Source of the DNA: Deltaproteobacteria bacterium
GTDB taxonomy: Bacteria; Desulfobacterota; Syntrophia; Syntrophales; UBA2192
Assembly: GCA_012728915.1 (NCBI GenBank)
Contig: JAAYEC010000072.1
Location: 1 to 36,680 of the forward strand
Reading direction: 5' to 3'
Length of the DNA stretch: 36,680 nucleotides
This document shows positions 15,388 to 31,734 of this stretch, piece by piece. Numbering within the stretch: the stretch's first letter is position 1; each line of letters opens with the position of its first letter. The translations under genes and the position numbers were made by a program. The notes beneath the pieces are model-generated. The model was given only the letters and a program-made list of their open reading frames with translations, was not told the DNA's origin and searched no databases.

Positions 15388-16872
15388 CTACCTTCCTTCG
15401 TTTTCCCTCCTGCGCCCGGCCTCCGCGTAAAGGCCCTCGTAGCGTTCCGCCGCCGACGCCCAGGTGAATCGCCTTGCCATGGCGTTCCGGATCAGCGCAT
15501 CCATGGCGTCCGGACGGCCGCGGAAGGCGCGCGTCGCCCGGCCGAGCGCGTCGAGCAGCGCCCGCTCCGTCGCCCCGTCAAACAGGAATCCCGTCCCCGT
15601 TCGGGTGGTCTCGTCGAAGTCCTCCACCGTGTCGGCCAGTCCCCCCGTGGCGCGGGCGACGGGCGGGGTTCCGTACCGCATGGCATACATCTGGGTGAGC
15701 CCGCAGGGCTCGAACCGCGACGGCATGACGAAGAAATCGGACCCCGCCATGACCTTGTGCGCCAGTGTCCCGTCATAGCCGATCCGACAGGCGAATCGAT
15801 CGGGATGATCCCGGGCGAGGGTCCGGAAGAAGGTTTCCGCCCAGGGCTCCCCCGCGCCCAACACGACGAGTTGGGCATCCAGCCCGAAAATCCGGTGCGC
15901 CGCCCCTGCGATCAGGTCGATCCCTTTCTGGCCGACGAGGCGTGACACGACGCCGAGGAGCGGCACGCCGGGCCCCGTCTCGGGGAGTCCGAGGGTTCGC
16001 TGCAGGTCCCGCTTGCAGAGACCCTTTCCCGCGCGGTCCCGTTCCGAGTAGTTCGCCGCGATCCGGGGATCCGTCTCCGGGTTCCATTCCGCGTAATCGG
16101 CGCCGTTGAGGATCCCCGACAGGTCGGCCTCACGGTCCCGGATCGCCCCTTCGATCCCGTGGGCGAACTCCCGCTGCCGGATCTCCGCCGCATAGGAGGG
16201 GCTCACCGTGTTGAGGAGCGTTGCGTGATAGATCCCGCCCTTCAGCAGGTTCACCCGGTCGAAAAACTCGAGATCCCGAAAGTGGAAGTGCTCCCACCCG
16301 ATGTCGAGGACGTCCATCAGGCCCTTGTCGAAGACGCCCTGCTGCTGCATGTTGTGGATCGTCAGGAGGCTTGCCGGGTTGCGGGATGCCGCGTCCTTCC
16401 GGTAGAGGGTGTCGAGAAACACCGGAACGGCCGCCGCGTGCCAGTCGTGGACGTGAACGACATCGGGCTCGAGGCCGAGCGCACCCGTCAGCTCCAGGGC
16501 CGCGCGGCAGAGCAGGACGAAACGGCGGTCGTTGTCGGGATACCCGTCTCCGCCGTGCCCGTACAGGCCGCTCCGGGCGTAGTAGGGATCGTACCGGACG
16601 AAATAGACCGTGACCCCCGAGCCGGGCGCCCGCCCCTGCAGCACCCCGCAGGGAAGGGATCCCAGGATGCCCATGGGCACGTCCATTGAGAGGCAATGCC
16701 GCAGACTGTGCCGGCTCGCGTCGATGGAGGAGTAGCCGGGCAGAACCACCCGGACGTCATGGCCGATCCGGGAGAGCGCCTGCGAGAGGCCGAGGACCGA
16801 GTCGCCAAGTCCTCCTTCCTGGGCGAACGGGGCCATTTCGGCGGCAACCATGAGGATGCGCAGTGCGGGCAT
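15388..16872 (-). CDS. glgA: Glycogen synthase, GT5 family
   Basis: This 494-residue protein adds ADP-glucose to the growing glycogen chain. Family blocks are the N-terminal AEMAPFAQEGGLGDSVLGL, VHVHDWHAAAVP (about 140-152), LTIHNMQQQGVF, LLGVVSRLVGQKGID (about 305-320) and SRFEPCGLTQMYAMRYG (about 395-411). I chose the ATG at 16872, which has GGGAGGAGG just upstream; the frame stays open a further 513 bp but that part overlaps mgtE. One oddity is that the Lys of the K-x-G-G-L motif, which contacts ADP-glucose in bacterial GlgA, reads Gln (Q18). mgtE is 20 bp upstream on the same strand. Confidence 0.92.
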   Translation of the reverse strand: MPALRILMVAAEMAPFAQEGGLGDSVLGLSQALSRIGHDVRVVLPGYSSIDASRHSLRHCLSMDVPMGILGSLPCGVLQGRAPGSGVTVYFVRYDPYYARSGLYGHGGDGYPDNDRRFVLLCRAALELTGALGLEPDVVHVHDWHAAAVPVFLDTLYRKDAASRNPASLLTIHNMQQQGVFDKGLMDVLDIGWEHFHFRDLEFFDRVNLLKGGIYHATLLNTVSPSYAAEIRQREFAHGIEGAIRDREADLSGILNGADYAEWNPETDPRIAANYSERDRAGKGLCKRDLQRTLGLPETGPGVPLLGVVSRLVGQKGIDLIAGAAHRIFGLDAQLVVLGAGEPWAETFFRTLARDHPDRFACRIGYDGTLAHKVMAGSDFFVMPSRFEPCGLTQMYAMRYGTPPVARATGGLADTVEDFDETTRTGTGFLFDGATERALLDALGRATRAFRGRPDAMDALIRNAMARRFTWASAAERYEGLYAEAGRRRENEGR

Positions 16873-16892
16873 CTTCGTCCTCCTCCCTCGCC

Positions 16893-18245
16893 TCACGCCG
16901 CGGCCAGGACCGCCTGCGCCACGGCGAAATAGATCATCAGGCCCAGGATGTCCATGACCGATGCGATCAGGGGGTTGCTGGCCACGGCGGGGTCGATGCG
17001 GAAGCGCTGCAGGATCACGGGCAGGATCACGCCGAGGAGGCTCGACGCGACGACGATCGCAACCATCGCCACGGACACGATCAGGGCGATCCGGGCATCG
17101 CCCTTGAAAAAGCCGAGAAGCCAGCCCGCCAGTCCCATGGTGACTCCGAGCAGCAACCCGATCGCGACCTCCCGGAACAGGGCCCCGACCCACTGCCTCT
17201 CGCGGATGTCCCCCGTCGCCAGCGCCCGCACCATCAGGGTGGCCGACTGGTTGCCCGTGTTGCCGCCTGTGCCGATGAGCAGCGGGATGAAGAAGGCCAG
17301 GGCGACGGCCGAGTTCAGCGTGTCGGCCTGGGACGCGAGAATGCCCGTCGTGACGATGCTGATGCCCAGCAGGGAGGCCAGCCACGTCACCCGCTTGCCG
17401 TAGAGCGACAGGATCGAGGCATCCCGGTAGCTGGCCTTCAGCGGGTTCACGGCGGCCGTCTTCTGGAAGTCCTCCGTCGCCTCCTCCTCGGCGACGTCGA
17501 AGACGTCGTCGATCGTCACGATCCCGAGCAGGGTATCCCCCGCGTCCACGACGGGGAGAGCCGTGATGTCGTATCGGGAGATGAGCTCGACGGCCTTCTC
17601 CCGGTCTTCGAACGCGTCGATGCGGACAACCGTTTCTTCCATGATGTCCCTGATCCTCGCGGACGGCGGCGCGAGGATGAGCTTCCGCAGGCCCAGGACA
17701 CCGAGCAGCTTCCAGCGGCCGTCGGTGACGTAAACGACGTTGATCGTTTCGCTGTCCATTCCCTTGGCGCGCACGTGCGCCAGGGCCTCGTCCACCGTCC
17801 AGTCGGGACGCACCGCCACGTAATCGGGCGTCATGAGCCGCCCGACGCTCTCCCCGGGATAACCGAGGAGCTGAAGGGTTTCCCGGCGATCCTCGGGGGT
17901 GAGCAGATTCATCATCTTCTGGATGGCCTGACCCGGCAATTCCTGAAGAAATTCCGCCCGGTCGTCGGGGCTCAGGCCCGCGAGGATCACCCGGGTCTCC
18001 TCCGTCGTTAGGGCCTGGAGGAGATCGGTCTGCGTCCTGTCCGAAAGGTACGAGAAGACCTCAGAAAGCATCTCCCGCGGCAGCAGGCGCAGCAGAACGA
18101 TCCGGTCCTGTTCGCCCAGCCGCTCGAGCGTGTCGGAGATGTCCGGTTCGGGAATCTCCACGATCAGTCCGCGAAGCTCCGCCCACCGGCGGTCGGCCAG
18201 GAGCTTCTCGATTTCCGGCTTCAACAGTTCAAACGTCTTCGGCAT
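16893..18245 (-). CDS. mgtE: Magnesium transporter MgtE
   Basis: This 450-residue protein has the three MgtE parts in order: an N-terminal superhelical domain (about 1-130) rich in LPRE/LTPEDR repeats, two CBS domains (about 138-252), and five membrane helices (about 283-450) with the pore motif IGTGGNTGNQSATLM (324-338). MgtE is a Mg2+ channel whose cytosolic domains sense Mg2+. Length is normal. The gene lies upstream of glgA with a 20-bp gap, suggesting co-transcription, though no functional link is obvious. The ribosome site before the ATG at 18245 is weak. Confidence 0.97.
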   Translation of the reverse strand: MPKTFELLKPEIEKLLADRRWAELRGLIVEIPEPDISDTLERLGEQDRIVLLRLLPREMLSEVFSYLSDRTQTDLLQALTTEETRVILAGLSPDDRAEFLQELPGQAIQKMMNLLTPEDRRETLQLLGYPGESVGRLMTPDYVAVRPDWTVDEALAHVRAKGMDSETINVVYVTDGRWKLLGVLGLRKLILAPPSARIRDIMEETVVRIDAFEDREKAVELISRYDITALPVVDAGDTLLGIVTIDDVFDVAEEEATEDFQKTAAVNPLKASYRDASILSLYGKRVTWLASLLGISIVTTGILASQADTLNSAVALAFFIPLLIGTGGNTGNQSATLMVRALATGDIRERQWVGALFREVAIGLLLGVTMGLAGWLLGFFKGDARIALIVSVAMVAIVVASSLLGVILPVILQRFRIDPAVASNPLIASVMDILGLMIYFAVAQAVLAAA

Positions 18246-18327
18246 GGGCGTACAACCTTTGCACGTCAGGATTGGAGGCCGAACCCCGGTCGGCCAAAGG
18301 GTTTGCAGTCTTTGCGTAACCGCCCAG

Positions 18328-18349
18328 GCGCAAGGGGGCCCTCTTGCGC
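18328..18349. other. Hairpin between acyl-CoA synthetase and mgtE genes
   Basis: GCGCAAG / CTTGCGC pair, with G-C extension inside, giving a stem of up to ten pairs and a tiny loop. It sits in the 156-bp gap between two minus-strand genes. No T-run follows on the minus strand. I could not match it to a known Mg2+ riboswitch. Confidence 0.35.
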
Positions 18350-18401
18350 AACCGGTTCAGGTCCCCCGTCCGCGAAGGCCGCGAAGACCCCGACCCTTCC
18401 T

Positions 18402-21086
18402 TCACAGCGCGAGCACCCCCCTCAGGGAGCCCTCGTCGGGCGAGATCCTGAACCCCTTGCGGCGCAACAAGGCGATGATACTCTCGTTGTCGGGCAGCAT
18501 GTCCGCCACGATTTCCCGGATGCCGCGGTCCCGGGCCACGTCGATGCAGTACTGCGTGAGAAGGGAACCGAGTCCCCGGCCCCGCAGGGCATCGCCGACG
18601 GCGACGGCAAACTCCGCCGTCTCCCGGTTCGTGTAATGAATGAGGTGGGCGATCCCGACCATCTCGGCGCCCTGTGCATCCTCCACCTCGGCCACAACGG
18701 TCAGTTCGCGATCATAATCGATGAAGCAGTCACGGACGGCCATCTCCGGCGTGACCTCCTTGCGGGAGGTGAAGTACCGGAACCGGAGGGTCTCCGGGGA
18801 AAACGACCCGAGCAGCCGGTGCCAGAGGGGCACGTCTTCGGGCCGCGCGGGCCGCAGCGTGACCTCCGTACCGTCGCGCAGGCGGGTTTTTCGTACCAGT
18901 TCCTCGGGGTAGGGGTGGATGGCCAGGTGGCGGTAGGGGGCCTTCGCACCCCGGACGAGGGCCTCGCCGTCGAGAACAACGCGGGCATCCAGGGCCCATG
19001 CGCCCCCAGGTCCCGCGAGCAGCGGGTTGATGTCCATCTCCCGGATGAGGGGATTGCGGACGACGAGATAGGAAAAGCGCACGAGGATCTCCGTCAGGAG
19101 ATCGAGGTTCACCGGCGGGCGGCCCCTGAAGCCCCGGAGGAGCTTGTACCCCCGGATCGACTCGATAAGCCGGCGGGCGAGCCTTTCGTTGAGGGGTGGC
19201 AAGGCCACGGCCCTGTCCTGGAAGACCTCGGCGGCGACCCCGCCCATCCCGAACAGGATCACCGTGCCGAAAATAGGATCCTTCTTCGCACCAAGGATGA
19301 GTTCGTGGCCCCGGTGCTGAATCATCCGCTGCACGGTTACGCCCTCGAGACGGGCGCGCGGGTCGTGCGTCGCAGCCCGTTTCATGATCCGGCGGAAGGC
19401 CTCCCGCACGGAGCGGTCCGATTCGATGCCTAGGACGACGCCCCCGGCGTCGCTCTTGTGCGTGATATCCGGCGACAGGATCTTGAGCACCACGGGGTAG
19501 CCGATCTTCTTCGCGAGCCGGACGGCCGCGTCCTCCTTTCGTGCAGGAAAAGCCTCCACGACGGGTATTCCGTACGCCTCGAGCAGCGTCTTCGAAACGG
19601 GCTCGGAGAGCGTCTCCGACTCCTCCATGGCGATCCGCTGGCCGACGAGGAGCAACTCGTTGACCCTGTCCTGGTCCATGCCGAGACCGATGTCCATATC
19701 CTTCGGCGTCTCGTGGAGCATCTCCAGATTTCGGCTGTAGTCGTGCATGGACAGAAACGTCCGGACGGCCTGCTCCGGCGTCGGGTAGGTCGGCACGCTC
19801 ATCCGGTTGAGCATGTCGATCCCCTCGCGCACGCTCTCGCCGCCCATCCACGCCGCCAGGACCGGCTTCTCCGTCTTGGCGGCGATCGAGCCTACGAGTC
19901 GCGCCGTTTCCGTCGGGTCGGTCATGGCCTGCGGGGTCAGGATCACGAGGACCCCGTCGTTCAGCCTGTCTTCGACCAGGGTGTCCAGGGCCCGCCCGAA
20001 TCTCTCCGGCGGCGCGTCCCCGATGATGTCCACGGGGTTTCCCCGGCTCCACATGGGTGGCAGGGCCGCCTGCAGGGCCTCCTTCGTCTCCCCGGAGAGT
20101 CCCGCCAGCTCGCCGCCCCGCTCGATGAGGCAATCCGTGGCCATGATCCCCGGTCCCCCCGCGTTGGTCAGGACGGCCAGCCTCGGCCCCCGGGGGTTGT
20201 GCTGCTTGGCGAGGATCTCGGCGCAGTTAAAGAGGTCGGTGATCTCGTCGACCCGGACAATCCCCGCCCTCCGGAAGGCCGCGTCGAAGACCAGATCCTC
20301 TCCGGCGAGGGCCCCTGTATGGGAGGCCGCGGCCCGCATGGACTCGGCAAAGCGGCCCGACTTCACGGCGACGATCGGCTTGGTCCGGGCGAAGGCGCGG
20401 GCAGCGCTCAGGAACTTGCGCGCATCGGTCACGGTCTCCACGTAGAGGACGATGCTCCGCGTCTTCCGGTCCATGCCGAAGTAGTCGATCAGGTCTCCGA
20501 AGTCGACGTCGACCATGGACCCGACGGACACAAAATGGCTGAACCCGATCCGATCGTCGATGGCCCACTCCACGACGGCAGTGCCGAGTGCCCCCGACTG
20601 CGAGAGAAAGGCAACGCGTCCGTCCAGGGGCATCCGGGCGCCGAAGCTCGCGTTAAGCTTCAGGGACGGGACGATCAGTCCGAGGCAGTTGGGCCCGATG
20701 ATGCGGACACCGTAGGGTTTTGCCCGGCGGAGCAGCTCCTGCTCCAGCTTCTTTCCCTCCTCCCCGACTTCCCGGAATCCGGCAGTGGTGACGACCACGC
20801 CGAGGATTCCCGCCCGGCCGCACTGCTCGATCACGTGGGGGACCGATGCGGCGGGGGAGGCCACCACAACGAGGTCCACCGCCCCGGGCAGTTTCCCGAC
20901 GGTCGGGAAGGCCCGGACGCCCTGGACCGTGTCGCGCCGCGGGTTCACGGGGTACACGGGACCCTCGAAACCCGAGCTTCGGAGGTTTCTGAACAGGGTG
21001 TACCCGACGCTGTGCGTATCGTCGCTCGCCCCGACGACGGCAACCGCTTTCGGATCGAATATTTTCTCGAGGTTCCGGATGCTCAT
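18402..21086 (-). CDS. ADP-forming acyl-CoA synthetase (alpha-beta fusion) with C-terminal GNAT acetyltransferase domain
   Basis: This 894-residue protein combines three parts. Residues 1-460 are the CoA-binding and ligase domains (VAVVGASDD, GPNCLGL, FLSQSGALG), 500-720 an ATP-grasp domain (GYPVVLKI, THKSDAGGVVLG, REMDINPL), and 735-894 a GNAT domain with the acetyl-CoA loop RGRGLG. The order matches PatZ/Pat protein acetyltransferases (about 886 residues). The phosphorylatable histidine of active ADP-forming synthetases, H256 in ASHTGALAG, is present, whereas Salmonella Pat is reported to have lost it. So this protein could make ATP from an acyl-CoA and also acetylate proteins. GGGAGGA precedes the ATG. 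The direction of the ligase reaction cannot be told from sequence. Confidence 0.9.
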   Translation of the reverse strand: MSIRNLEKIFDPKAVAVVGASDDTHSVGYTLFRNLRSSGFEGPVYPVNPRRDTVQGVRAFPTVGKLPGAVDLVVVASPAASVPHVIEQCGRAGILGVVVTTAGFREVGEEGKKLEQELLRRAKPYGVRIIGPNCLGLIVPSLKLNASFGARMPLDGRVAFLSQSGALGTAVVEWAIDDRIGFSHFVSVGSMVDVDFGDLIDYFGMDRKTRSIVLYVETVTDARKFLSAARAFARTKPIVAVKSGRFAESMRAAASHTGALAGEDLVFDAAFRRAGIVRVDEITDLFNCAEILAKQHNPRGPRLAVLTNAGGPGIMATDCLIERGGELAGLSGETKEALQAALPPMWSRGNPVDIIGDAPPERFGRALDTLVEDRLNDGVLVILTPQAMTDPTETARLVGSIAAKTEKPVLAAWMGGESVREGIDMLNRMSVPTYPTPEQAVRTFLSMHDYSRNLEMLHETPKDMDIGLGMDQDRVNELLLVGQRIAMEESETLSEPVSKTLLEAYGIPVVEAFPARKEDAAVRLAKKIGYPVVLKILSPDITHKSDAGGVVLGIESDRSVREAFRRIMKRAATHDPRARLEGVTVQRMIQHRGHELILGAKKDPIFGTVILFGMGGVAAEVFQDRAVALPPLNERLARRLIESIRGYKLLRGFRGRPPVNLDLLTEILVRFSYLVVRNPLIREMDINPLLAGPGGAWALDARVVLDGEALVRGAKAPYRHLAIHPYPEELVRKTRLRDGTEVTLRPARPEDVPLWHRLLGSFSPETLRFRYFTSRKEVTPEMAVRDCFIDYDRELTVVAEVEDAQGAEMVGIAHLIHYTNRETAEFAVAVGDALRGRGLGSLLTQYCIDVARDRGIREIVADMLPDNESIIALLRRKGFRISPDEGSLRGVLAL

Positions 21087-21501
21087 GGTGTCCTCCCGGT
21101 GAGATGCCTGGATTGCTGCATGCCCCGATCGTTCCGCCCGTCCGGCCGAAAGGCTGCGTCAGCGGCTACTCGTCGCAGACGCAGATCCCCGGTGCGTCGC
21201 AAAGCGGTGCCTATCTTGCCTCCCGGGCGCATGGCTCATATAGGGGGCGGAACGAGACGCCTTGCGGGCCGCCTCTTCCCGGGTTCGGCCCGCTTGGCCG
21301 GGGAAAAGGCCGGATGCGCAAGCCGGTCGAGGCCGGCGAACAGCACGGACAAGAGAGAGCCCCTTGTGAAGCGCCCCAGGCAGGCAGGCGTGCGCCCTAC
21401 GATCGGGATTGGCCGACGTTTCCGGTGTTGGGAGCCTTCCGTCCATTTTCTGTCGTTTCCCTCCGTCGCGTTCCGTCCTTCCTCTCCGCCTGGTTTCCAG
21501 C
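21087..21501. other. 415-bp intergenic region without a recognisable gene
   Basis: It separates the GH65 gene from the acyl-CoA synthetase gene, both on the minus strand. Open frames occur in several phases but none has a ribosome site or a recognisable protein. No strong terminator was found. It probably carries the promoter of the acyl-CoA synthetase gene and marks the end of the solute cluster. Confidence 0.5.
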
Positions 21502-23901
21502 TCATTCGGCTTCGGACTCGTAAAGATGGATGGTTTCGCCTGAGGCGAGCGTGCGGCGTTTCTCACGGTACTGAAACGATACGTCGCCGTCTTCCCCCGG
21601 TTCGCGGGAAATTGTGATTTTCCCGGACTTCGCGGCAATAGCGATCCTGTCGTTCCGGACCCGGATCTTCATCCGCAGGCCGCTGAGTTCCGGGGGGATT
21701 CGGGGATTGAGGTGGATGACCCCGTCGCGGAACTCGAGCCCCGTGTAGCATCGCTGGATCAGGTCCGCCGTCCCGGCCATGGCCCCAAGGTGGATTCCCT
21801 CGTGGGTGGTGCCGCCCTGGATGTCCGAGATGTCGCTCTCAAGAGCCCGCTGGAACAGCCGCCAGGAAGCCGCGCGGTCCATCCGGGCAAGGACCCAGGA
21901 GTGAACGACGTTACTGAGCGTCGAGCCGTTGGATGTCCTCTCGAGGTAGTAGCGGATGTTCCGGGGAATCGCGACGGGGTCGAATTTGTACCCCATCGCC
22001 GAGAACAGCTCCTGCAGCTCCTCCGCGGAGAACAGGTAAAAGAGCATGAGCACATCGGCCTGCTTGGAGACCTGGTAGCGGTTCGGCGAATCGCCTTCGG
22101 CCTCGAGAATCCGGTCGAGACGCTGGATGTTGCCGTACTTTTCCCGGTAGCCGGCCCAGTCGAAGGGCGCCAACCGTTCGTAGCCCTCGAACTGGCTGAT
22201 GATCCCGTTGCCGTGAAAAGGGACCTTCATCCTCGGCGGAATCATCCTCCAGCGTTCGATCTCCTCCTCCTCGAGACTGATCGTTTCCTTCAGGTCCTGC
22301 AGCGCCGCCTTACCGAGGATCTCAATAACCCCCAGGGCCGTTCGGAGCACCCAGGCCGTCATGACGTTGGTGTAGGCGTTGTTCTTCAGACCCGGCTCCG
22401 CGGCTCCGGGATAGGCCTCGTGATACTCGTCGGGCCCCACCACACCGTGGATCTCGTAGCGGTTCTCGAGCGTGTTGTAGGTGGTCCGATCGGCAAGCAT
22501 CCGGGCAATCTCGAGAATGACTTCCGCCCCGAAGGCACTCAGGAAGGCCCTGTCTGCCGTCATCTCGACGTACTGCCAAATATTGTACACGATCGCCGCG
22601 TTGACATGAAGCTGCAGCCGGGAGTGGTCGGGCATCCAGCGACCGGAACGGGGGTTGAGCCTCAGCGACTGCGTCTCCTCCCGTCCGTCGCTTCCGCTCT
22701 GCCAGGGAAAGAGGGCGCCACGTAGCCCTGCATCGGCCGCGGCCTGACGGGCCGACCCGAGACGCCGGAACCGGTACAGCAGCCGGGAGCGGGCCACCTC
22801 GGGAAACCGGAGGTTCAGAAAAGGCAAAATGAAGAGCTCGTCCCAGAAAATATGTCCCCGGTACGCCTCGCCGTGCCACCCGCGCGCAGGGATGCCCGCA
22901 TCGAGGTCCGCAGATCGGGGGGCGTTGACCTGCAGCAGATGAAAGAGGTGCAGCCGCAGCATCATCCGCGTGCGCGCGTCGGCGCCCAGTTCCATGTCGC
23001 AGCGGTTCCAGAGATGCCTCCAGGCGAGTTCGTGACTCTCCCGCAGCTCATCGAATCGTCCGGCCCGTCCCGCTTCGTCACAGGCAGCCCGGACGATTCC
23101 GGACACCGCCGGATCTCTCGACGTATACAGGGACATCGTCTTCTCCACCAGAAGGGTCTGCCCCTTCTCGACATCCACCGCGAACTCCTCCGACACGAAA
23201 CCCGGCACGGCTTCGACGGAGCGGGCGGTGGAAACCTCCTTTCCGCGGCAGGACAGTCGCGTTCGGGCCGCCTGGGCGACCTGGAGGCTCGACTGATTCG
23301 TCCGAACCAGGAGGTAGAGGACCCCGCCTTCCTCGCCGGACCGAAGCGGCTCGAGATGCCGGTTGCTCAGCCGGCGGTACCGCGCCACCCCGTCATTGAC
23401 GACAGTGCCGTCCAGGGCCGAGCGGACCCGGATAAGGCCGGCCCAGTTCAGGGCGGTGATCCGCGTCTCATGGGCCGCCAGATGAACGCGGCCCATGTGA
23501 ACGAAACGGCGGCTCTCGACCCGGCACTCGCGGTCCCTGCGGTCCCGGAAATGAAACGTACGCGAGAGAATGCCCCGCCGGAGATCCAGAACCTGGCGGT
23601 AACCCAGAAGGGAAACGGACCGGATATCAAACCAGCCGTCGTCGTCGAACCGAAACCCCAGACACAGCCAGTTCGGCATGTTCACGAGATCCTCGTTTTC
23701 CACGATCCGGCCGGCGATCTCCGTTTCGAGCCGGTTGTATCCGCCCGCAAGATAGGTTCCGGGATAGTGCGTATCGCCGGCACGCGATTCGGCCGCCGCG
23801 CCCCGGGTGAAAAAATACCCGTTTCCTAGCGTGCAGAGGGCCTCGCGAAGCTTTTCCTCGGCGGGGTTGAAGTCGTCGTATCGAAGCGTCCATTCAGGCA
23901 C
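21502..23901 (-). CDS. GH65 disaccharide phosphorylase (trehalose/maltose/kojibiose type)
   Basis: This 799-residue protein is a full-length family 65 enzyme: an N-terminal beta-sandwich (about 1-280), an (alpha/alpha)6 barrel with FWDELFILPF (352-361), the general acid E492 in GVVGPDEYHE, K613-Q614 in the substrate loop VSKQADVLM, and the phosphate-binding region HEGIHLGAMAGT. These enzymes split an alpha-glucoside with phosphate to beta-glucose-1-phosphate and glucose. The start is a GTG at 23901 with GGGAGGAG upstream; it overlaps the stop of the preceding HAD/trehalose-phosphatase gene by eight bases. Neighbours (otsA, otsB, treT) point to trehalose or trehalose-6-phosphate as substrate, but maltose and kojibiose cannot be excluded. 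Confidence 0.93.
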   Translation of the reverse strand: MPEWTLRYDDFNPAEEKLREALCTLGNGYFFTRGAAAESRAGDTHYPGTYLAGGYNRLETEIAGRIVENEDLVNMPNWLCLGFRFDDDGWFDIRSVSLLGYRQVLDLRRGILSRTFHFRDRRDRECRVESRRFVHMGRVHLAAHETRITALNWAGLIRVRSALDGTVVNDGVARYRRLSNRHLEPLRSGEEGGVLYLLVRTNQSSLQVAQAARTRLSCRGKEVSTARSVEAVPGFVSEEFAVDVEKGQTLLVEKTMSLYTSRDPAVSGIVRAACDEAGRAGRFDELRESHELAWRHLWNRCDMELGADARTRMMLRLHLFHLLQVNAPRSADLDAGIPARGWHGEAYRGHIFWDELFILPFLNLRFPEVARSRLLYRFRRLGSARQAAADAGLRGALFPWQSGSDGREETQSLRLNPRSGRWMPDHSRLQLHVNAAIVYNIWQYVEMTADRAFLSAFGAEVILEIARMLADRTTYNTLENRYEIHGVVGPDEYHEAYPGAAEPGLKNNAYTNVMTAWVLRTALGVIEILGKAALQDLKETISLEEEEIERWRMIPPRMKVPFHGNGIISQFEGYERLAPFDWAGYREKYGNIQRLDRILEAEGDSPNRYQVSKQADVLMLFYLFSAEELQELFSAMGYKFDPVAIPRNIRYYLERTSNGSTLSNVVHSWVLARMDRAASWRLFQRALESDISDIQGGTTHEGIHLGAMAGTADLIQRCYTGLEFRDGVIHLNPRIPPELSGLRMKIRVRNDRIAIAAKSGKITISREPGEDGDVSFQYREKRRTLASGETIHLYESEAE

Positions 23902-25528
23902 GAGGGGCTCCTCCCGTTTCGATCTCCAGGATCATCTGCAGGAACTTCGACACTTCGCCGGGGTCCCGCAGGGCGTACCGCGCCGCCGTCGGAGCGGCCT
24001 GTTCCCGCACGACAATGGGAATGCCCCGTTCCCGGAGCGCGCGGAAGGCGTCCTCGTCGGTCACGTCGTCGCCGATGAACAGGGGGACAACATCCTCCCT
24101 GTCGAGCCGGAGCGCCCGCAGCAGGAAACGGACCGCCTCACCTTTGTTCCACGCAAGGGCGGGCTGAAGCTCGAAGACCTTCTTCCCGTAAGTTTTCCGC
24201 AACGAGGGATACCGGTCCGCCGCGGCATTGACGGCAGCTTGCACCGCCGCCACATCCGCGTCCGCCACGAGACGGTAGTGCACGGCGATGGAGAAGCGCT
24301 TCCGCTCGATCAGGCAGCCCCGGACGCCGCCCAGCTCGCCCCTCAGTTCCCGCTCGGCTCCGTCAAGGGCGGGAAGGTACGCGCGGGCTCCCTCATGCTC
24401 GGCCTGCAGATCCCCGGGGCCCTCGATTTCGTAGCCGTGGCTTCCCGAGTAGACCAACGTATCGATGCCGACCAGTTTACGGACGTCCCGCAGGTCGCGC
24501 CCGCTGACGACGGCGACGGGAACCCGGGCGGCGAGTTCCTCGAGCAGGCGCCGCACCTCGGGGGAAAGGAGCGCCCGATCCGGGGTCTCCACGATGGGCG
24601 TCAACGTGCCGTCGTAGTCGAGAAACAGGGCGAACCGCCGGCCCAGGGCCTCGGCCAGAATCTCGTCCCGGGCCGCGAGCGCCGACGGCAGGGTGCCGTC
24701 CGGCGCTTCACCCATTCGGACCGACCCGGAAACGGACAGATCGGAGAGACTCGCGATGACGATGCCCGCGCCGCCCCCCCGCAGGATTTCCGCGTGCCGT
24801 TCTTCACGGGCGAGTCCCACGACGAGGCCGAAGCCCCCGCTGCCGGCCGCCAGCACACCGGCCAGCGAATCCTCAACCACGGCACAGTGCCGCGGCGCCA
24901 CGCCCAGGCGCTCCGCCGCTTCGAGGAAGATGCCCGGGTCGGGCTTCCCGGGGATGCCCAGGCGCTCCGCCTCGAGCCCGTCCACCACGGCGTCGAAGCG
25001 CTCTGCGTATCCGGCGTCCCTGAGAATCGCCGCGCAGTTTTTGCTGGCCGATATCACGGCGGTCCGAAACCCGTGCCGCTTCAAATCTCGAAGGAGCGCG
25101 GGCAGCGCGCCGTCGATCCTCGCCCCCTCCTCTTCCAGGTATTTCCGGAAAAGTCTGTTCTTCCAATTGCCGAGACCGTGAAGCGTTTCCAATCCGGGCG
25201 GGTCCGTGTCGCTGCCCTCGGGCAGCCGAAGGCTCCTCGAATGCAGGAAATCCCGGACCCCGTCGATCCGCGGCTTCCCGTCCACGAAGCGGCGATAGTC
25301 GTCCCGGGGATCGAACGGGCGTAGGTCGCGGCAGCTCTTTTCATCGCCGGTCTTCCGGATCGCAGAGAAAAATGTGTCGAACGTGCTCTTCCAGGCCCGG
25401 ACGTGCAGGGGTGACGTATCGGCCACGACGCCATCGAAATCGAAAATAACGGCACCCAGCCGATCATCGGCCAATACGGATTCATTTGCCCGGTTGATTT
25501 GTCTCTCTTTTTCGTTATGCAAATCCAT
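23894..25528 (-). CDS. otsB: Beta-phosphoglucomutase-like HAD / trehalose-6-phosphate phosphatase fusion
   Basis: The 544-residue product has two HAD phosphatase modules. The first (about 22-270) begins IFDFDGVVADTS with nucleophile D30 and resembles beta-phosphoglucomutase (GKPDPGIFLEAA, VEDSLAGVLAA). The second (about 300-540) begins LFLDYDGTLTPIV with D304 and D306 and ends with GDDVTDEDAF, the OtsB signature, removing phosphate from trehalose-6-phosphate. I chose the ATG at 25528, preceded by GGGGAG, over a longer frame reaching 25615. The pair of this gene and the overlapping GH65 gene repeats the domain order reported for mycobacterial OtsB1 (Rv2006), split in two. The mutase half would turn the phosphorylase product into glucose-6-phosphate. 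Confidence 0.9.
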   Translation of the reverse strand: MDLHNEKERQINRANESVLADDRLGAVIFDFDGVVADTSPLHVRAWKSTFDTFFSAIRKTGDEKSCRDLRPFDPRDDYRRFVDGKPRIDGVRDFLHSRSLRLPEGSDTDPPGLETLHGLGNWKNRLFRKYLEEEGARIDGALPALLRDLKRHGFRTAVISASKNCAAILRDAGYAERFDAVVDGLEAERLGIPGKPDPGIFLEAAERLGVAPRHCAVVEDSLAGVLAAGSGGFGLVVGLAREERHAEILRGGGAGIVIASLSDLSVSGSVRMGEAPDGTLPSALAARDEILAEALGRRFALFLDYDGTLTPIVETPDRALLSPEVRRLLEELAARVPVAVVSGRDLRDVRKLVGIDTLVYSGSHGYEIEGPGDLQAEHEGARAYLPALDGAERELRGELGGVRGCLIERKRFSIAVHYRLVADADVAAVQAAVNAAADRYPSLRKTYGKKVFELQPALAWNKGEAVRFLLRALRLDREDVVPLFIGDDVTDEDAFRALRERGIPIVVREQAAPTAARYALRDPGEVSKFLQMILEIETGGAPRA

Positions 25529-25565
25529 GAAGTCTCCCCGAGCCCTTCTTTCGAGGGAATGCGCC

Positions 25566-26510
25566 TCATTCCGCCGCCTCACCCGCCAGGAGGATCCGGT
25601 GGAGACGCTCCACATCCTCCCGGCGGCAAAGCTCGGAGCCCGGCGTCATGACCGCCGCCGTCCCTGCGGCAAGCCCGTACAGGGCGGCGTCCCGGATGGG
25701 CCTGCCCTGCGCAAGGCTCAGAACGACCCCTGCGACGGTACTGTCGCCGGCCCCCACCTTGCTGCGGATCGGCACGACGGGAGCCCGCAGGCGCTCGGCC
25801 CCCTCCCGGGTGACCAGCAGGATGCCCGCTGCCCCAAGCGAAAGAAGGATCACCTCGCAGCCGCTGCGCCGAAGAAGATCCAGGGAAAGCGCCTCCTGTT
25901 CCGACTCGTCTCGCGGCTCCCGGCCCACCAGGTCGATGAACTCCTGGTAGTTCGGCTTGAGGAGATAGAGCGGTTCCCGGACGGCCCGCCTCAGGGCCTC
26001 CCCCGAGGTATCAACGATGACGCGGGCCCCGATCCTCTGCCCGATGCGTGCCATTCTGGCATAGAAATCCTCCGGAACGCCCGGCGCAAGAGCGCCGCTC
26101 CCCACCAGATAGCCCGTCTCGGGGCCGAGAGCGGTCAGGATATCGAGCAATCGCTCCCATTCCGCTTCGCCGATCGTCGGCCCCGGCATCCCGAAACGGT
26201 ATTGCTGGCCCGTCGCTTCTTCGTAAACCATGAAGCTCTCCCGCGTGGGCTCCGTGATGGGCACCGGGCAGTGGGGTACGTTTTCCTGATCGAGGAGATC
26301 CCCGAGAAGACACCCCGTGTGGCCGCCCGCGGAATGGACCGCAAGGGATCGACCGCCAAGCCGGGCGATCACCCGCGAGACATTGATCCCGCCGCCTCCG
26401 GGCTCGTAGACGGGGGCCCCGCACCGCAGCTTGCGGCCGGGCACAACGTTCGAAACGGAGGTGCTGATATCCACTGCGGGGTTTACCGTAAGCGTGACGA
26501 TTGGGGTCAT
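25566..26510 (-). CDS. pfkB: PfkB-family sugar kinase, phosphofructokinase-like
   Basis: This 314-residue kinase starts MTPIVTLTVNPAVDIS, the N-terminus typical of 1-phosphofructokinase, tagatose-6-phosphate kinase and Pfk-2. It has the glycine-rich YEPGGGGINVSRV block (about 36-48) and the C-terminal VGAGDSTVAG motif with catalytic D256. It would phosphorylate a sugar phosphate, most likely fructose-6-phosphate, as E. coli Pfk-2 does. The ATG at 26510 follows GGGAGG; a longer reading from 26552 lacks a ribosome site. It lies 37 bp upstream of the HAD/OtsB fusion. With the phosphorylase and mutase it could channel trehalose carbon to glycolysis. The exact substrate is not proven. Confidence 0.85.
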   Translation of the reverse strand: MTPIVTLTVNPAVDISTSVSNVVPGRKLRCGAPVYEPGGGGINVSRVIARLGGRSLAVHSAGGHTGCLLGDLLDQENVPHCPVPITEPTRESFMVYEEATGQQYRFGMPGPTIGEAEWERLLDILTALGPETGYLVGSGALAPGVPEDFYARMARIGQRIGARVIVDTSGEALRRAVREPLYLLKPNYQEFIDLVGREPRDESEQEALSLDLLRRSGCEVILLSLGAAGILLVTREGAERLRAPVVPIRSKVGAGDSTVAGVVLSLAQGRPIRDAALYGLAAGTAAVMTPGSELCRREDVERLHRILLAGEAAE

Positions 26511-26588
26511 CGTTTCGTGCCTCCCGGTCTGTTGATGGGGTCGTTTTGGCACTCACGGCCCGGCCGGAATGCAGCGGGCGCCATCCGA

Positions 26589-27050
26589 TCAGCCGTCGGC
26601 GGGAACGAGCAGAACCGGCACGGGACTCCTCTGACCGACACGCTGGGCGACGCTGCCCATGAACAGGTGCCCCATCGCCGTCTGGCCCCGGCTGCCCATA
26701 ACGATCAGGCCCATCGATTCCCGCACGGCGACATCGATAATCTTCTCGGACGGCTTGCCCTTCATGACGAGAGTCTCGCAGGGGATGTTCGCGGGGCATT
26801 GTGCGGCGTAGCGCTCCCGGAGTTCCTGCTCGACCCTGTCGCGGATCCCGTCGGCGACCTGGATCCGCAGATCCGGCGTCACGAAACTCATATACTCCGG
26901 ATCTTCGTAGTCGTTCGCCACCACGTGCATCACAACAATCCGGCCGCCGTTCGCCCGGGCTATCCCGCAGGCATAGCCGAAGGCCGCATCCGCGCTTGAG
27001 GAAAAATCGGCGCAGAACAGGATCTGTTTCAGGTTGTCGATCGTTTTCAT
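26589..27050 (-). CDS. Universal stress protein (UspA family)
   Basis: This 153-residue protein has the single Usp fold: ILFCADFSSSADAAFGYA at the N-terminus, a central VVMHVVA strand, and the C-terminal nucleotide-binding pattern GSRGQTAMGHLFMGSVAQRV (about 121-140), the G-x2-G-x9-G-S motif of ATP-binding members. Its cellular role is not defined by sequence. AAAGGAGA precedes the ATG. It sits inside the solute cluster, 78 bp upstream of pfkB, which fits a stress-linked regulon. Confidence 0.92.
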   Translation of the reverse strand: MKTIDNLKQILFCADFSSSADAAFGYACGIARANGGRIVVMHVVANDYEDPEYMSFVTPDLRIQVADGIRDRVEQELRERYAAQCPANIPCETLVMKGKPSEKIIDVAVRESMGLIVMGSRGQTAMGHLFMGSVAQRVGQRSPVPVLLVPADG

Positions 27051-27174
27051 AGCATGGTCTCCTTTCTTGTCGTTTGTCCGGCCGGTTCACCCGGTCCGGT
27101 TCCCTTCGGAGGGTCCCCGGCCCGGCTTGCCCGCCGGCCATCCCCGGCAGCCCGCTCGCCGAGGGCGGGCGTCC
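27051..27174 (-). other. Gap with GC-rich inverted repeat inside the solute cluster
   Basis: The 124-bp gap before the stress-protein gene holds GCCCGC and GCGGGC as a 6-bp stem just after the stop of the upstream glycosyltransferase, on the minus strand. There is no T-run. It may set relative mRNA levels along the cluster or mark the start of a second transcript. Confidence 0.3.
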
Positions 27175-28383
27175 TTACGCATTGTCCATCTCGACGGCTT
27201 CCCTCATCCGTTCCTCGAAGTCCGGGATCGCGGCGTGGACGCGCACCCACGCGGCAAGCATGGGGACGCCCACGGGATCTTGGACGAAGTCGGCAATGGC
27301 TGCTCTGAGGGATCCGACGAAGGCCTCGACGGCCTCGATCTCGGCGTGGCGGTCGTAGGTCAGCCCGTTGATCAGCGACAGGGCGTGGTATTTCTCAATG
27401 GTCACCCGGGCCTCCTGAATGTAGGAGGTCAGCATCGTCCGGAAAAACGCCTCGCTCAGGACGATCCCGTCCTGGGTGAGGACCCGGAAGAGGGCCCTGG
27501 CGATGTCCCCGGCCATGCGCAGCAGCCCCTCGTTGGGCTTTTCCTTCCGGAGCACCTGGTGCTTGTGCTCGTAGGTCTCCGCCAGGTCGACCTGGCAGAT
27601 CCGGTTGACCGAGGCCCGCTGGTAGACCTCGCTCAGCAGCGATACCTCGAGGCCCCAGGTGGGTGAGATCCGGATCCCGCGGGCGAGGCTCGAAATCAGG
27701 GCGAACTCGCCCGAGAGGGCGTACCGGAAGCTGTCCAGAAAAGACAGGAAGGGGTTCAACCCCAGGATGCGGTTCAGCGTCCGGATCAGGGGCGTGTAAA
27801 ATAGCCGGGTGACGCGGCCGTAGAGCTGGTCCGTCACGCGGGCGTAGTAGCCCTTGCTGAACTCGAAATCCAGGGCCGGGTGCGCCACGGGGAGGATCAG
27901 CCGGGCGAGCATCTCCCGACGGTAGTTGACGATGTCGCAGTCGTGCAGGGCGACGGCGTACACCTCCGGTTCCGACAGGACGCTTCCGAGGGTCATCCAC
28001 ACCGATCGCCCCTTGCCGGGGTGATCCATGGAGAACGCGTTCCGTATCAGCTCCCGGTAGAGCTTCCGCATCCTCGGCCCGTCGTGCCAGACGACCCGGA
28101 CATCGGCCCTCAGCACGGACATGGCCTGCCTTGCCTTCTCGAACTCCGTCCTTCCCGCCCGGTCCAGCGAGAGAACCACCTTGTGGAGATACTCCACCCC
28201 TTTCAATTCCTCGAGGATCCGCGGCATGGAGGCGGTTTCGAACTCCGAGTACAGCGCGGGCAGCAGCAGGACGAGTTTCCTGTGCCGCGCGATCGCCTTG
28301 AGATCCGCCTCGAGCGCGCCGGCGGGACGCTCCCGCAGCTTCTGCAGGGTCGTGATCATGCCGTGCTGCCAGAAATCAGCCAT
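27175..28383 (-). CDS. GpgS-like GT-A glycosyltransferase (second of a pair)
   Basis: This 402-residue protein has the layout of glucosyl-3-phosphoglycerate synthase and relatives: LLLPALYSEFE (about 39-49), PGKG (122-125), a metal site HDCDIV (DCD, 148-150), LSGEFALI (223-230) and WGLEVSLL (243-250). GpgS enzymes transfer glucose from an NDP-sugar to 3-phosphoglycerate. The Asp-Cys-Asp in place of the usual Asp-Ser-Asp is a visible difference. It has about 150 extra C-terminal residues compared with the short mycobacterial GpgS. The ATG overlaps the upstream glycosyltransferase gene by eight bases and has a strong GAGGAGGT. Donor and acceptor are inferred only from family and from the phosphatase two genes upstream. 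Confidence 0.7.
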   Translation of the reverse strand: MADFWQHGMITTLQKLRERPAGALEADLKAIARHRKLVLLLPALYSEFETASMPRILEELKGVEYLHKVVLSLDRAGRTEFEKARQAMSVLRADVRVVWHDGPRMRKLYRELIRNAFSMDHPGKGRSVWMTLGSVLSEPEVYAVALHDCDIVNYRREMLARLILPVAHPALDFEFSKGYYARVTDQLYGRVTRLFYTPLIRTLNRILGLNPFLSFLDSFRYALSGEFALISSLARGIRISPTWGLEVSLLSEVYQRASVNRICQVDLAETYEHKHQVLRKEKPNEGLLRMAGDIARALFRVLTQDGIVLSEAFFRTMLTSYIQEARVTIEKYHALSLINGLTYDRHAEIEAVEAFVGSLRAAIADFVQDPVGVPMLAAWVRVHAAIPDFEERMREAVEMDNA

Positions 28384-29635
28384 CGCGCACCTCCTCGTTC
28401 CAGATCCTGATCAGGTAGTCCTTCATCTTCTCGAATGCCGCGGCGTGGGCCTCGAAGAGTTTTTCCGCTCCGCCGGGATCCCGGTCCCGCACCTCGTTGA
28501 TGAGGCTCGCCACCCGGGCGTTGTAGAGCGGGACCATCGTGTCGAGGATCTTGAAGCGCTGCCGCGGCGTCGCGTGAAAATAACGGGCGTAGCGGTAGAC
28601 GATGCGGACCCAGGTCTCGGCGGGCAGGAGAAACTCTTCCGTCCGCGTGACGGACGCGAGGTCCCGGATCACCTCGAGGTCCTTCTCCTCGACGACCCGC
28701 TGCCAGACGCCCGAGAAGTTCGCCCACCCCGTCCGGAAATAGTCGACTAGCCCCTCCTGGTCGATCTCGAAAGGAGTCGGCTCCTGCTCCAGCTCTTCAC
28801 CGAGCACCGGGACATCGCGGGATCGCCGGACCTTCTGCCAGTGTCCGGCGTTGGTCTCCATGAGCTGGAAGATCGTCCCCACGACCTGGCGGAACATCGG
28901 GCCCAGGTCGGCCCCGGGGTCCTTCTCGCCGTGCACCTTGATCCCCAGCCGGGCCTGACAGAGCTTGAATCCACCCACGATGGCCGTCGTGGTCATCCAC
29001 ACGTCGATGCCGAAGCGGGCCACGTCCGTCTCCCAGACGTCCTGGTCGAAGTAGTGCTTGACCAGCCGCTGGGAGATCCCGAAGTCGCCGCCGATGGGCT
29101 GCCGTATGCGCTGCCCGTAGAGCGCGCGCGTCAGGTTGTAGGCGATCGTGTTGGTGATGGTGCCGTCGAGCTTGTAGCGCCGGTAGTACGGGGCGACGAA
29201 GTCGTACCCCTTGAAGACGGGGTCGAGGACGTTGCGGACCCACTCGGGCTTGATGGAGACAAGGTCGGAGTCGAAGACCGCCACGGCCCGGGCCCGCAGG
29301 AAATTCGCCACCTCGAAGGCGGTCCGCAGGCCCGACCCCTTCCCCGGAACGCCCCGGTAGATCGTGACGACCTTCCTGATGTTGTACGAGTGGATCTGCA
29401 CGAGGTTCGCAACCTCGCGCGAGTCGTCCGTGGATCCCCCGTCGGCGACGAGAATGACGGCCTTGGCGTCGGGATAAAAGCGCTCGAGACCTGCGGCGAC
29501 GGTCTGGATCACGTGCACGATGGCCCCTTCGCTGTAATAGGAGGGAATCCCGATGACGATGTCCGCGTAGCGGAGCTGCTCGATCGTCTTGCGGGCATGG
29601 TCCCGGAGGGTTGTAGAGAAACGGGTTGTCGTCAT
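28376..29635 (-). CDS. GpgS/mannosylglycerate-synthase-like GT-A glycosyltransferase (first of a pair)
   Basis: This 419-residue protein shows VADGGSTDDS (about 64-73), PGKGSGLRTA (97-106), the metal motif FDSDLV (DSD at 122-124), APYYRRYK, the QPIGGDFGIS block and FGIDVWMTT. These blocks line up in order with glucosyl-3-phosphoglycerate synthase and, more loosely, with GT78 mannosylglycerate synthase. It most likely makes a hexosyl-glycerate or its phosphate. The ATG at 29635 was chosen with GAGAGGA upstream; the frame stays open to 29707. A phosphoglycerate-sugar phosphatase lies 31 bp upstream, and a second, divergent enzyme of similar type overlaps its end. Confidence 0.75.
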   Translation of the reverse strand: MTTTRFSTTLRDHARKTIEQLRYADIVIGIPSYYSEGAIVHVIQTVAAGLERFYPDAKAVILVADGGSTDDSREVANLVQIHSYNIRKVVTIYRGVPGKGSGLRTAFEVANFLRARAVAVFDSDLVSIKPEWVRNVLDPVFKGYDFVAPYYRRYKLDGTITNTIAYNLTRALYGQRIRQPIGGDFGISQRLVKHYFDQDVWETDVARFGIDVWMTTTAIVGGFKLCQARLGIKVHGEKDPGADLGPMFRQVVGTIFQLMETNAGHWQKVRRSRDVPVLGEELEQEPTPFEIDQEGLVDYFRTGWANFSGVWQRVVEEKDLEVIRDLASVTRTEEFLLPAETWVRIVYRYARYFHATPRQRFKILDTMVPLYNARVASLINEVRDRDPGGAEKLFEAHAAAFEKMKDYLIRIWNEEVRDG

Positions 29636-29666
29636 CGCGGTACTGTCCTCTCGTATGGGCGCTGCA

Positions 29667-30482
29667 TCACGGGGCCGCTGTGTCCAGGATCCCGTTGACG
29701 GCCTCATTCCAGCCCCGGCTCCCGGGACAGGGAGCCCTTCGCAGATTCGGCAGGTCGACGTCCTCGTAGCGCCCGTCCGGGTGAGGGATCAGGACGGGGA
29801 GGTCGACGGCGGCGAGCATGGAGATGTCGTTGGGCCTGTCGCCGATGCCGACGCTGAGCACTTCTTCGCCGAGGTTGCCGCGAAAAATGCGGAGGGCCCG
29901 CTTCACGGCTTCCCCCTTATCCTGCCCGCTTCCGATCAGGTGGTAAAAGCGCCCTCCCCTCGTGATCGTCAGGCCCGCCTTTCGTGCCTCCTCCCCCAGG
30001 AGCGCCGGCGGCGCGTCCCCGGCAACGAGAAACGGCTCGGTGAATTCCCGCTGCTTTGCCAGGCGGGCTTCCTCCGGGCCCAGACCCGTGATCTCCACCA
30101 ACTCCCCGATGCTCATGTCCCCCACGCCGCGGATGCCGAAGCGGGTCTTCCGCTCCTCGACGAACCGCCGGATCTCGGAATAGGGCCTCCCCAGCCGGAT
30201 CAGGATCCTGCCGTCCTGCTCGACCCCGCCCGGAATACGGAAATTCCGGTATCCCGGGGGGAAGAAAAGCCCCCCTCCGTTTTCCGAGATGAAGGGCTCC
30301 CGGATATCCATGTCCCCCTGCAGTCGCAGGACCTCTGCGCGGGTCTTGCTCGTGACGAAGACCAGGGGCACGGACAGGTCCCGGATCCGCTCCAGGGCCG
30401 ACCGTGCGCCCTCGCAGGAATACCCCTGATGATCCAGGAGGCTCCCGTCGAGGTCCGTGAAGAGGATCAGCTTCCGTCGCAT
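29667..30482 (-). CDS. HAD phosphatase, mannosyl/glucosyl-3-phosphoglycerate phosphatase family
   Basis: This 271-residue HAD enzyme starts MRRKLILFTDLDGSLLDH, with nucleophile D10 and D12, then FVTSKTRAEV (motif II) and the family blocks FISENGGGLFFP and IGDRPNDISML. These match mannosyl-3-phosphoglycerate phosphatase (MpgP, YedP), a family that in Persephonella also serves glucosyl-3-phosphoglycerate. It would release phosphate to give free mannosyl- or glucosylglycerate, a compatible solute. It follows treT after one base with a poor ribosome site, so it is probably translated by coupling. The two glycosyltransferases that could supply its substrate come next. Confidence 0.85.
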   Translation of the reverse strand: MRRKLILFTDLDGSLLDHQGYSCEGARSALERIRDLSVPLVFVTSKTRAEVLRLQGDMDIREPFISENGGGLFFPPGYRNFRIPGGVEQDGRILIRLGRPYSEIRRFVEERKTRFGIRGVGDMSIGELVEITGLGPEEARLAKQREFTEPFLVAGDAPPALLGEEARKAGLTITRGGRFYHLIGSGQDKGEAVKRALRIFRGNLGEEVLSVGIGDRPNDISMLAAVDLPVLIPHPDGRYEDVDLPNLRRAPCPGSRGWNEAVNGILDTAAP

Positions 30483-30483
30483 C

Positions 30484-31716
30484 TCACACCATGACGGTAT
30501 TCTCGATTTTCCCCTCGACCAGTGCGTAGACCAGGGTGAGGTACTCCCGGAGGTGCCGGGTCAGGAGGTAGTATTCGCGGACCAGCTCTCGGCCCGCTTC
30601 TCCCATCCTGAGGCACTGCTCCCGGTGGTGTAGGAGATAGCGGATCCGGTTGGCGGCCCCCTCGGGCGTCATGACGAGGAACCCCGTGTGGTAGTCGACA
30701 ACCTGCAGGCGGATGCCCCCGGCGTCGCCCCCGATGACAGGCTTCCCCTTCCACATACCCTCGGTGACGGTGAGGCCGAAGCCTTCCCGGGTCGATTTCT
30801 GAACCACGATGTCTGCGATGCGCTGCAGAGCGTTCACCGTTCGGTTCGCGGCGGGCGGCAGCATTTCCACGTGGATGTCCGGGTCTCCCTCGGCGGCCTC
30901 CAGCACCGCATCAAGGATCTCCTTTCCCTCCGGGTCATCGGTGGCCCCGCCACCTGCCAGGACGAGTTGGACGGGCGTTACCTTGCGGACCATCCGATAG
31001 GCCTGAATGACGCCCACAGGATCCTTGAACCGGTCGAAACGGGAGATCTGGACCAGGACGGGTATGTCGGGCTTGAGTTCGAACTGCTCCCGCACCGCAT
31101 CGAGTTCGCTCTCGTCGAGCTCGATGTTCTTTTCGCTGAGCGGGTCGATGCTCGGCGCGATGAGAACCTGAAGGTGGGGCAGCAGCTGCGCAAACTGGCA
31201 CATGGAAAAGATGCTCGCGTCGTACTTTTCCACGAAGGGTTTGAGCCCCTTCCAGACCGCTCGAGAGGGGTGGCTCGCGTCGATGTGGCAGCGCCAGATC
31301 CACCGACCCCGGCGCCGGGCGCAGAGTTCCAGCATGGGCGCCGGCTGCGGGTCGTGGATGATAACAATGTCGGCCTCCTCGAGCTCGTCTCTCAGCGTCC
31401 CGGCGTTTTGCAGGTTCACATCCCGGTAGAGCTCCCAGTCGCGCTTTTTCAGCAGAACGGGATAGCCCTGCAGACCATTGTGGATGGCCTTGGTCACAGA
31501 GAAGAATTCGCCGCTCCCCGTGATCACCCGCCAGCGAACATCGAGGCCGAGGTCATTCATGAGCGGAACCATCCAGGCGAGGATTTCCGCCACCCCGCCG
31601 CCTTCGGCGGTTGAATTGACATGAACGACGCGAAGGCCTCTCAGGCGCTCCCCGAGCCTGCGCAACTGGCCGATGACAGGGATGCCGACGATGGGTTCGT
31701 ACAGATCGATGTTCAT
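30484..31716 (-). CDS. treT: Trehalose synthase TreT-type GT4 glycosyltransferase
   Basis: This 410-residue protein matches glycosyl-transferring trehalose synthase. The N-terminal VHVNSTAEGGGVAEIL (31-46) is the sugar-binding loop typical of TreT; HDPQPAPML (121-129), ISRFDRFKDP (R226, K231) and the E-x7-E motif REGFGLTVTEG (E311, E319) follow. TreT makes trehalose from NDP-glucose and glucose, reversibly. Length agrees with archaeal TreT (about 400-415). GGGAGTGAGG precedes the ATG. It is in one tight block with a DUF5752-like gene (18 bp upstream) and the MpgP-like gene (one base downstream). Trehalose phosphorylase of the GT4 type is a close relative and the alternative. Confidence 0.88.
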   Translation of the reverse strand: MNIDLYEPIVGIPVIGQLRRLGERLRGLRVVHVNSTAEGGGVAEILAWMVPLMNDLGLDVRWRVITGSGEFFSVTKAIHNGLQGYPVLLKKRDWELYRDVNLQNAGTLRDELEEADIVIIHDPQPAPMLELCARRRGRWIWRCHIDASHPSRAVWKGLKPFVEKYDASIFSMCQFAQLLPHLQVLIAPSIDPLSEKNIELDESELDAVREQFELKPDIPVLVQISRFDRFKDPVGVIQAYRMVRKVTPVQLVLAGGGATDDPEGKEILDAVLEAAEGDPDIHVEMLPPAANRTVNALQRIADIVVQKSTREGFGLTVTEGMWKGKPVIGGDAGGIRLQVVDYHTGFLVMTPEGAANRIRYLLHHREQCLRMGEAGRELVREYYLLTRHLREYLTLVYALVEGKIENTVMV

Positions 31717-31734
31717 GCCTCACTCCCGTTCGAC

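Follow-up and report, generated by a model that had tools for sequence, protein, structure and literature searches.

Gene pair and its junction

The window analyzed here is a 36,680-nucleotide stretch of contig JAAYEC010000072.1 (positions 1 to 36,680; assembly GCA_012728915.1, Deltaproteobacteria bacterium), and our analysis concerns two overlapping genes on its minus strand. The upstream gene (23894..25528), present as a single copy in the genome, encodes a protein of 544 amino acids (aa) that combines a beta-phosphoglucomutase-like (beta-PGM-like) HAD domain with a trehalose-6-phosphate (T6P) phosphatase domain, OtsB. The downstream gene (21502..23901) encodes a GH65 protein of 799 aa, a predicted T6P phosphorylase. 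The original prediction of two overlapping open reading frames (ORFs) holds, and the overlap is exactly 8 bases (GTGCCTGA, 23894..23901), with the TGA stop codon of the HAD-OtsB gene (23896-23894) and the start codon of the GH65 gene inside it. Domain assignment with Pfam and NCBIfam confirmed the predicted identities, the order HAD-OtsB-GH65 and the correspondence with the fused OtsB1-type proteins. The predicted summed length (544 + 799 = 1343 aa) is likewise correct, but its match to the 1327 aa of mycobacterial OtsB1 (PMC11046441) is partly coincidental, the HAD domain of OtsB1 being capless.

The sequence GGGAGGAG stands directly before the GTG start codon of the GH65 gene, and the AGGAG ribosome-binding site read from it (23908..23912, minus strand) is spaced 6 nt from the GTG; the junction is therefore a credible coupled start. 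An alternative HAD-OtsB start at ATG 25615 would give 573 aa, and the conserved part of the HAD domain begins well after 25528. Among related loci, with GH65 start codons picked by an automatic rule, 34 of the 59 split junctions overlap; the usual overlap is the 4-nt ATGA or GTGA (21 junctions), and five junctions overlap by 8 nt. A sequencing break at the junction was ruled out by the same adjacency in dozens of independent genomes; programmed frameshifting was ruled out by the varying relative frame among the orthologues (30/18/11) and by the Shine-Dalgarno sequence that the GTG has of its own.

Predicted activities of the three domains

The HAD domain (residues 26-231; 24836..25453, minus strand) matches PF00702 (E 1e-28) and TIGR02009, and its closest solved structure is the beta-phosphoglucomutase 8h5s (E 7.5e-52). 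It carries the DxD nucleophile and acid/base, the cap His/Lys/Arg and the core Ser/Lys/Glu-Asp of beta-PGM: residues D30, D32, H42, W46, K85, R87, S160, K195, E219 and D220 are all present in the window and are kept in nearly all split forms, one cap residue differing in a few relatives. The OtsB domain (residues 302-523; 23960..24625, minus strand) matches Trehalose_PPase PF02358 (E 2.5e-52) and scores 184.8 bits against TIGR00685, for which the cut-off is 68. Its motifs LDYDGT (DxDGT), SGRD (SGR), GSHG and GDDVTDED are intact, as are the catalytic residues in nearly all split forms. The closest solved structure for OtsB together with the end of the HAD domain is the trehalose-phosphate phosphatase 5gvx.

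All three family domains (PF03636, PF03632 and PF03633) were found in the GH65 protein. Its general acid is E492, and it keeps the residues R340, S660, T661 and H704 of the phosphate-binding site as defined for GH65 phosphorylases (PMC8626586); an Arg stands in place of Lys at this site, likewise in the GH65 chain 4ktp. The closest solved structure, 9lb6 (E 7e-135), was deposited as a trehalose-6-phosphate hydrolase, and our literature search found no source paper for it.

Six GH65 positions, numbered by CsKP (64/392/394/402/416/585), predict specificity, reading TRIGPP in trehalose phosphorylase, EEAPxx in kojibiose phosphorylase and DQGQDE in T6P phosphorylase (PMC8537180). After one CsKP reference residue had been restored from the residue numbering, the window GH65 was found to have D, Q, G and Q at the first four positions and E at 585. 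The DQGQDE prediction has been borne out by the activity of CaGP from Caldithrix abyssi, which made T6P from beta-glucose-1-phosphate (beta-G1P) and glucose-6-phosphate (G6P) (PMC8537180). CaGP shares the motif DQGQ..E with the window enzyme, although the accessible text of PMC8537180 describes no phosphatase partner for it.

DQGQ occupies the first four positions in 33 of the 53 GH65 proteins of split HAD-OtsB loci, and most of the others deviate at the first or third position only. Seven pairs of a HAD and a GH65 gene without OtsB (L046-L050, L208 and L219), recovered from the phylum of the window and from two Actinomycetota, belong to another GH65 type. They resemble the window in that a beta-PGM-like HAD adjoins GH65, but they lack OtsB and their GH65 residues are trehalose-phosphorylase-like, with a TR or SR start. 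Thus, the T6P-using phosphatase accompanies the GH65 proteins predicted to be T6P-specific. The pair Rv3400-Rv3401 may, we assume, also be of the type without OtsB. Judging from these residues and motifs, we consider it quite probable that the two genes provide a beta-phosphoglucomutase, a T6P phosphatase and an inverting T6P phosphorylase.

Distribution of the module

We searched 297 genomes of the same phylum, about 400 genomes of Actinomycetota (the phylum of locus L115), 84,980 species genomes and, in addition, plasmids. The scan of the species genomes used HAD-OtsB patterns and kept 80 loci, so that the sampling is biased; the layouts were counted from stop-to-stop ORFs, with the loci parsed for domain order. 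The commonest layout was that of the window, HAD-OtsB followed by a separate GH65 gene (52 loci vs. 24 with fused HAD-OtsB-GH65). Three separate genes were found at 6 loci (8 after hand correction of two), a HAD gene followed by fused OtsB-GH65 at 2, HAD-GH65 without OtsB at 9, separate OtsB and GH65 genes at 1 and fused OtsB-GH65 at 1. The split arrangement of the window is ordinary for this module family, and the rarity that the original prediction had implied for it was not borne out.

The module was found in about ten phyla, with hosts among Pseudomonadota, Thermodesulfobacteriota, Actinomycetota, Bacteroidota, Omnitrophota, Chloroflexota, Nitrospirota, Spirochaetota and Elusimicrobiota. 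No description of a HAD-OtsB-GH65 module was found in our literature search. Nearly identical three-gene modules occur in two metagenome-assembled genomes (MAGs), one labelled Anaerolineae (L128) and the other Alphaproteobacteria (L129), which points to misbinning or very recent transfer.

Evolutionary history of the split and fused forms

For the root of the GH65 tree (101 rows) we used 9lb6 together with plasmid-borne homologues adjoining pgmB-like genes. The tree requires five switches from one state, split or fused, to the other, four of them forced by the starred branches alone. Weighted parsimony reconstructed five fusions and zero fissions, even with a fission priced at a third of a fusion, and all nodes between the root and the window came out as split. 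Five changes were again obtained with a mixture-model GH65 tree of 48 rows, on which the hypothesis that the fused forms all go back to one origin was rejected (approximately unbiased (AU) test, p 0.0028), and five likewise with the HAD+OtsB tree.

Across 74 loci, divergence in any one domain goes with divergence in the other two (r 0.64-0.82, permutation maximum 0.26), the pattern to be expected if the module is passed on as a unit. Separate histories for HAD-OtsB and GH65 were also considered, since in the large HAD+OtsB tree the window has another position (support 90, on a long branch), but targeted tests failed to reject a common clade: the clade of the GH65 tree was not rejected by the HAD or the OtsB data (p-AU 0.75 and 0.57).

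The split form is the older arrangement, and fused forms arose about five times. The original prediction had left open whether the window represents an ancestral split form or a fission, and these results favor the former, because the lineage of the window was split throughout. Fused relatives do occur in the same phylum (G183, G207 and G230), and they could suggest that an OtsB1-like fused ancestral protein was split recently in the lineage of the window. We regard such a fission as highly improbable, given that the GH65 clade of the window is entirely split (99% support in the Shimodaira-Hasegawa-like approximate likelihood ratio test, SH-aLRT) and that the deep branches are split as well. 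Repeated fusion fits a physical interaction of the module proteins, and the two products of the window may be physically coupled. The module is a worked case of a unit that exists in one-, two- and three-gene versions and has been fused repeatedly and independently.

A fused module was also found on a contig labelled Candidatus Ethanoperedens, an archaeon (L072); it groups with the fused forms of Actinomycetota, through lateral transfer or as a misbinned contig.

Proposed reactions and their direction

According to our interpretation, the HAD domain would convert G6P to beta-G1P, GH65 would join beta-G1P to a second G6P to give T6P and inorganic phosphate (Pi), and OtsB would irreversibly take the phosphate off T6P to give trehalose. 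Overall, 2 G6P would yield trehalose + 2 Pi without any nucleotide sugar such as UDP-glucose. The last step is that of the OtsA-OtsB pathway, in which OtsB turns T6P into trehalose, whereas the T6P of the module is predicted to come from beta-G1P and G6P and not from a nucleotide sugar and G6P. We propose that the two genes form a translationally coupled, ancestrally split module of three activities on T6P, run toward trehalose without a nucleotide sugar, and we assign this reading a probability of about 0.6. For the synthetic direction of the flux taken by itself, the chances appear evenly balanced.

The direction is suggested by genomes without other known sources of T6P; were OtsA the only source, the module would be expected only together with OtsA. 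GT20 OtsA was absent from 19 of the 70 module genomes, and 18 of these carry the full module (G712 has no GH65 in the fetched locus). The 18 include G195 (one contig, 100% complete), G110 (99% complete) and three isolates, Kineobactrum sediminis, Thioalkalivibrio thiocyanoxidans and Legionella saoudiensis. In 17 of the 18, the EIIC of the glucose-family phosphotransferase system (PTS) is absent as well, so that import of T6P via a permease of that family is not expected. With neither OtsA nor this EIIC, the GH65 reaction in reverse (from beta-G1P and G6P, the direction in which CaGP was assayed) is the only known source of T6P left, and such genomes point to trehalose synthesis free of nucleotide sugars. 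In vitro, a cascade with T6P phosphorylase (T6PP) reached a molar yield of 93%, and its authors call the T6PP step nearly irreversible toward T6P; they presented this ATP- and UTP-free route to T6P as new to nature (PMC13121652). The OtsA, TreT and GpgS-like genes in the cluster of the window (see below) were also counted in favor of the proposed module.

A number of points weigh against this reading. We know of no enzyme of the GH65-module clade of the window that has been assayed. The GH65 residue at CsKP position 416, which lies beside an alignment gap, is W or D. The HAD domain misses the curated cut-offs for beta-PGM (TIGR02009, 144.5 vs. 153.35 bits; TIGR01990, 100.7 vs. 189.4 bits), and we therefore call it beta-PGM-like. 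OtsA is present in 51 of the 70 module genomes, that of the window included, and TreY, which gives trehalose and not T6P, was over the cut-off in 13 of the 18 full-module genomes without OtsA; therefore, the module is usually not the sole route to trehalose. Several of the genomes without OtsA are draft MAGs, in which its absence may reflect incompleteness. The equilibrium constant of 760 reported for the in vitro system belongs to the overall maltose cascade and not to the T6PP step alone (PMC13121652), and the only characterized T6PP-betaPGM pathway, that of Lactococcus lactis, is degradative (PMC10969515).

The last point, together with the frequency of OtsA, leads to the main rival explanation, in which the same three activities degrade T6P or set its level: GH65 would phosphorolyse OtsA-made T6P to beta-G1P and G6P, the HAD domain would feed beta-G1P to glycolysis and OtsB would drain the rest to trehalose. 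It deserves most weight for genomes with OtsA, that of the window among them, and a Bacteroidales locus (L141) with a HAD-GH65 fusion adjoining a 758-aa ORF that contains OtsB also speaks for it. The L. lactis pathway pairs both predicted activities, but it has no phosphatase domain, and its substrate arrives through a trehalose PTS. Against the degradative reading, a phosphatase joined to a phosphorylase that breaks down T6P would be its competitor, and the full-module genomes lacking both OtsA and the glucose-family permeases would leave a degradative module without T6P. We therefore consider the degradative role unlikely, though not negligible. A further reading, in which GH65 hydrolyses T6P to G6P and glucose and the module thereby disposes of T6P, seems improbable to us. 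Its appeal lies in the name under which 9lb6 was deposited and in E701, conserved in both proteins, which could serve as a base. However, in GH65 hydrolases the phosphate-binding Ser-Ser/His is gone and the base sits elsewhere (PMC8626586), whereas the window protein keeps S/T and H at this site, with no replacement by a Glu general base there. Moreover, homologues with the same residues adjoin pgmB in Lactiplantibacillus, and a hydrolase would leave the intact beta-PGM without a substrate; a beta-PGM partner makes sense only where beta-G1P is handled, which argues for a phosphorylase.

If trehalose synthesis is indeed the direction, the module would represent a further route to this sugar that costs no nucleotide sugar, a saving from which cells short of energy could plausibly benefit.

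Relationship to mycobacterial OtsB1 and OtsB2

OtsB1 (Rv2006) shares with the window the order HAD-OtsB-GH65, the GH65 clade and most of the OtsB active-site residues. It differs in being one polypeptide, as opposed to two genes with an 8-base overlap, and in that the mycobacterial-type HAD domain is capless and degenerate, whereas that of the window is of full length with its residues intact. The fused proteins of mycobacteria and rhodococci (L188-L191, L070 and L154) lack about 120 cap residues in the HAD domain, along with most of the counterparts of K195, E219 and D220; their GH65 active site is preserved apart from some differences close to the acceptor site. These fused copies, and not the Rv2006 sequence itself, are the basis of our inferences on OtsB1. 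Locus L188 appears to be mycobacterial by homology, as its genome encodes a phosphatase matching 5gvx (619 bits over 390 residues), which we take to be M. tuberculosis OtsB2.

In M. tuberculosis, OtsB1 belongs to the DosR regulon, and its function is recorded as unknown (PMC11046441, PMC12090744); no activity or phenotype has been recorded for it (PMC11046441), and the data behind a claim that it lacks phosphatase activity were not given (PMC12090744). From its mutase domain, which is of the type lacking the cap and catalytic residues, OtsB1 looks like a decayed descendant of the module, and it is not the reference form. From its relatives, split or fused, that are still intact, a specific chemistry can be predicted for it: a dead mutase, a probable phosphatase and a probable T6P phosphorylase. 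In addition, OtsB2-type phosphatases of mycobacteria (L213:1156-2487 and L214:3712-5112) nest within the fused OtsB1-type clade (100% SH-aLRT); at the N terminus they can be aligned with the HAD remnant, with 44% over 163 aa in the case of L188 (E 2e-25). This suggests that the essential OtsB2 may have been derived from the fused module by loss of GH65 and of the HAD cap. The widest interpretation, of a natural trehalose synthase free of nucleotide sugars, present in about ten phyla, fused independently about five times and with OtsB1 and OtsB2 as decayed descendants, can be advanced only tentatively.

On the Rhodococcus plasmids L070, L154, L155 and L157, fused OtsB-GH65 or HAD-GH65 genes lie near genes for universal stress protein, phosphoketolase or hydrogenase, a dormancy-like setting.

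Gene neighborhood

On the minus strand, the module belongs to a gene run (15388-34083) that also contains OtsA (34083-32557) and TreT (31716-30484), as well as mannosyl-3-phosphoglycerate phosphatase-like, GT2/mannosylglycerate-synthase-like, GpgS-like, universal stress protein and PfkB genes; a GT5 starch-synthase-like gene comes further downstream. The GT2/mannosylglycerate-synthase-like and GpgS-like genes also overlap by 8 bases. Across the loci, the 89 neighbors had little in common beyond three TreT and two OtsA genes, and the comparison of neighbors adds no evidence. Directly downstream of GH65, on the same strand, lies a gene (18402-21086) for an acyl-CoA-ligase-like protein of the NDP-forming type with a C-terminal GNAT domain, which resembles the Pat-type protein acetyltransferases.

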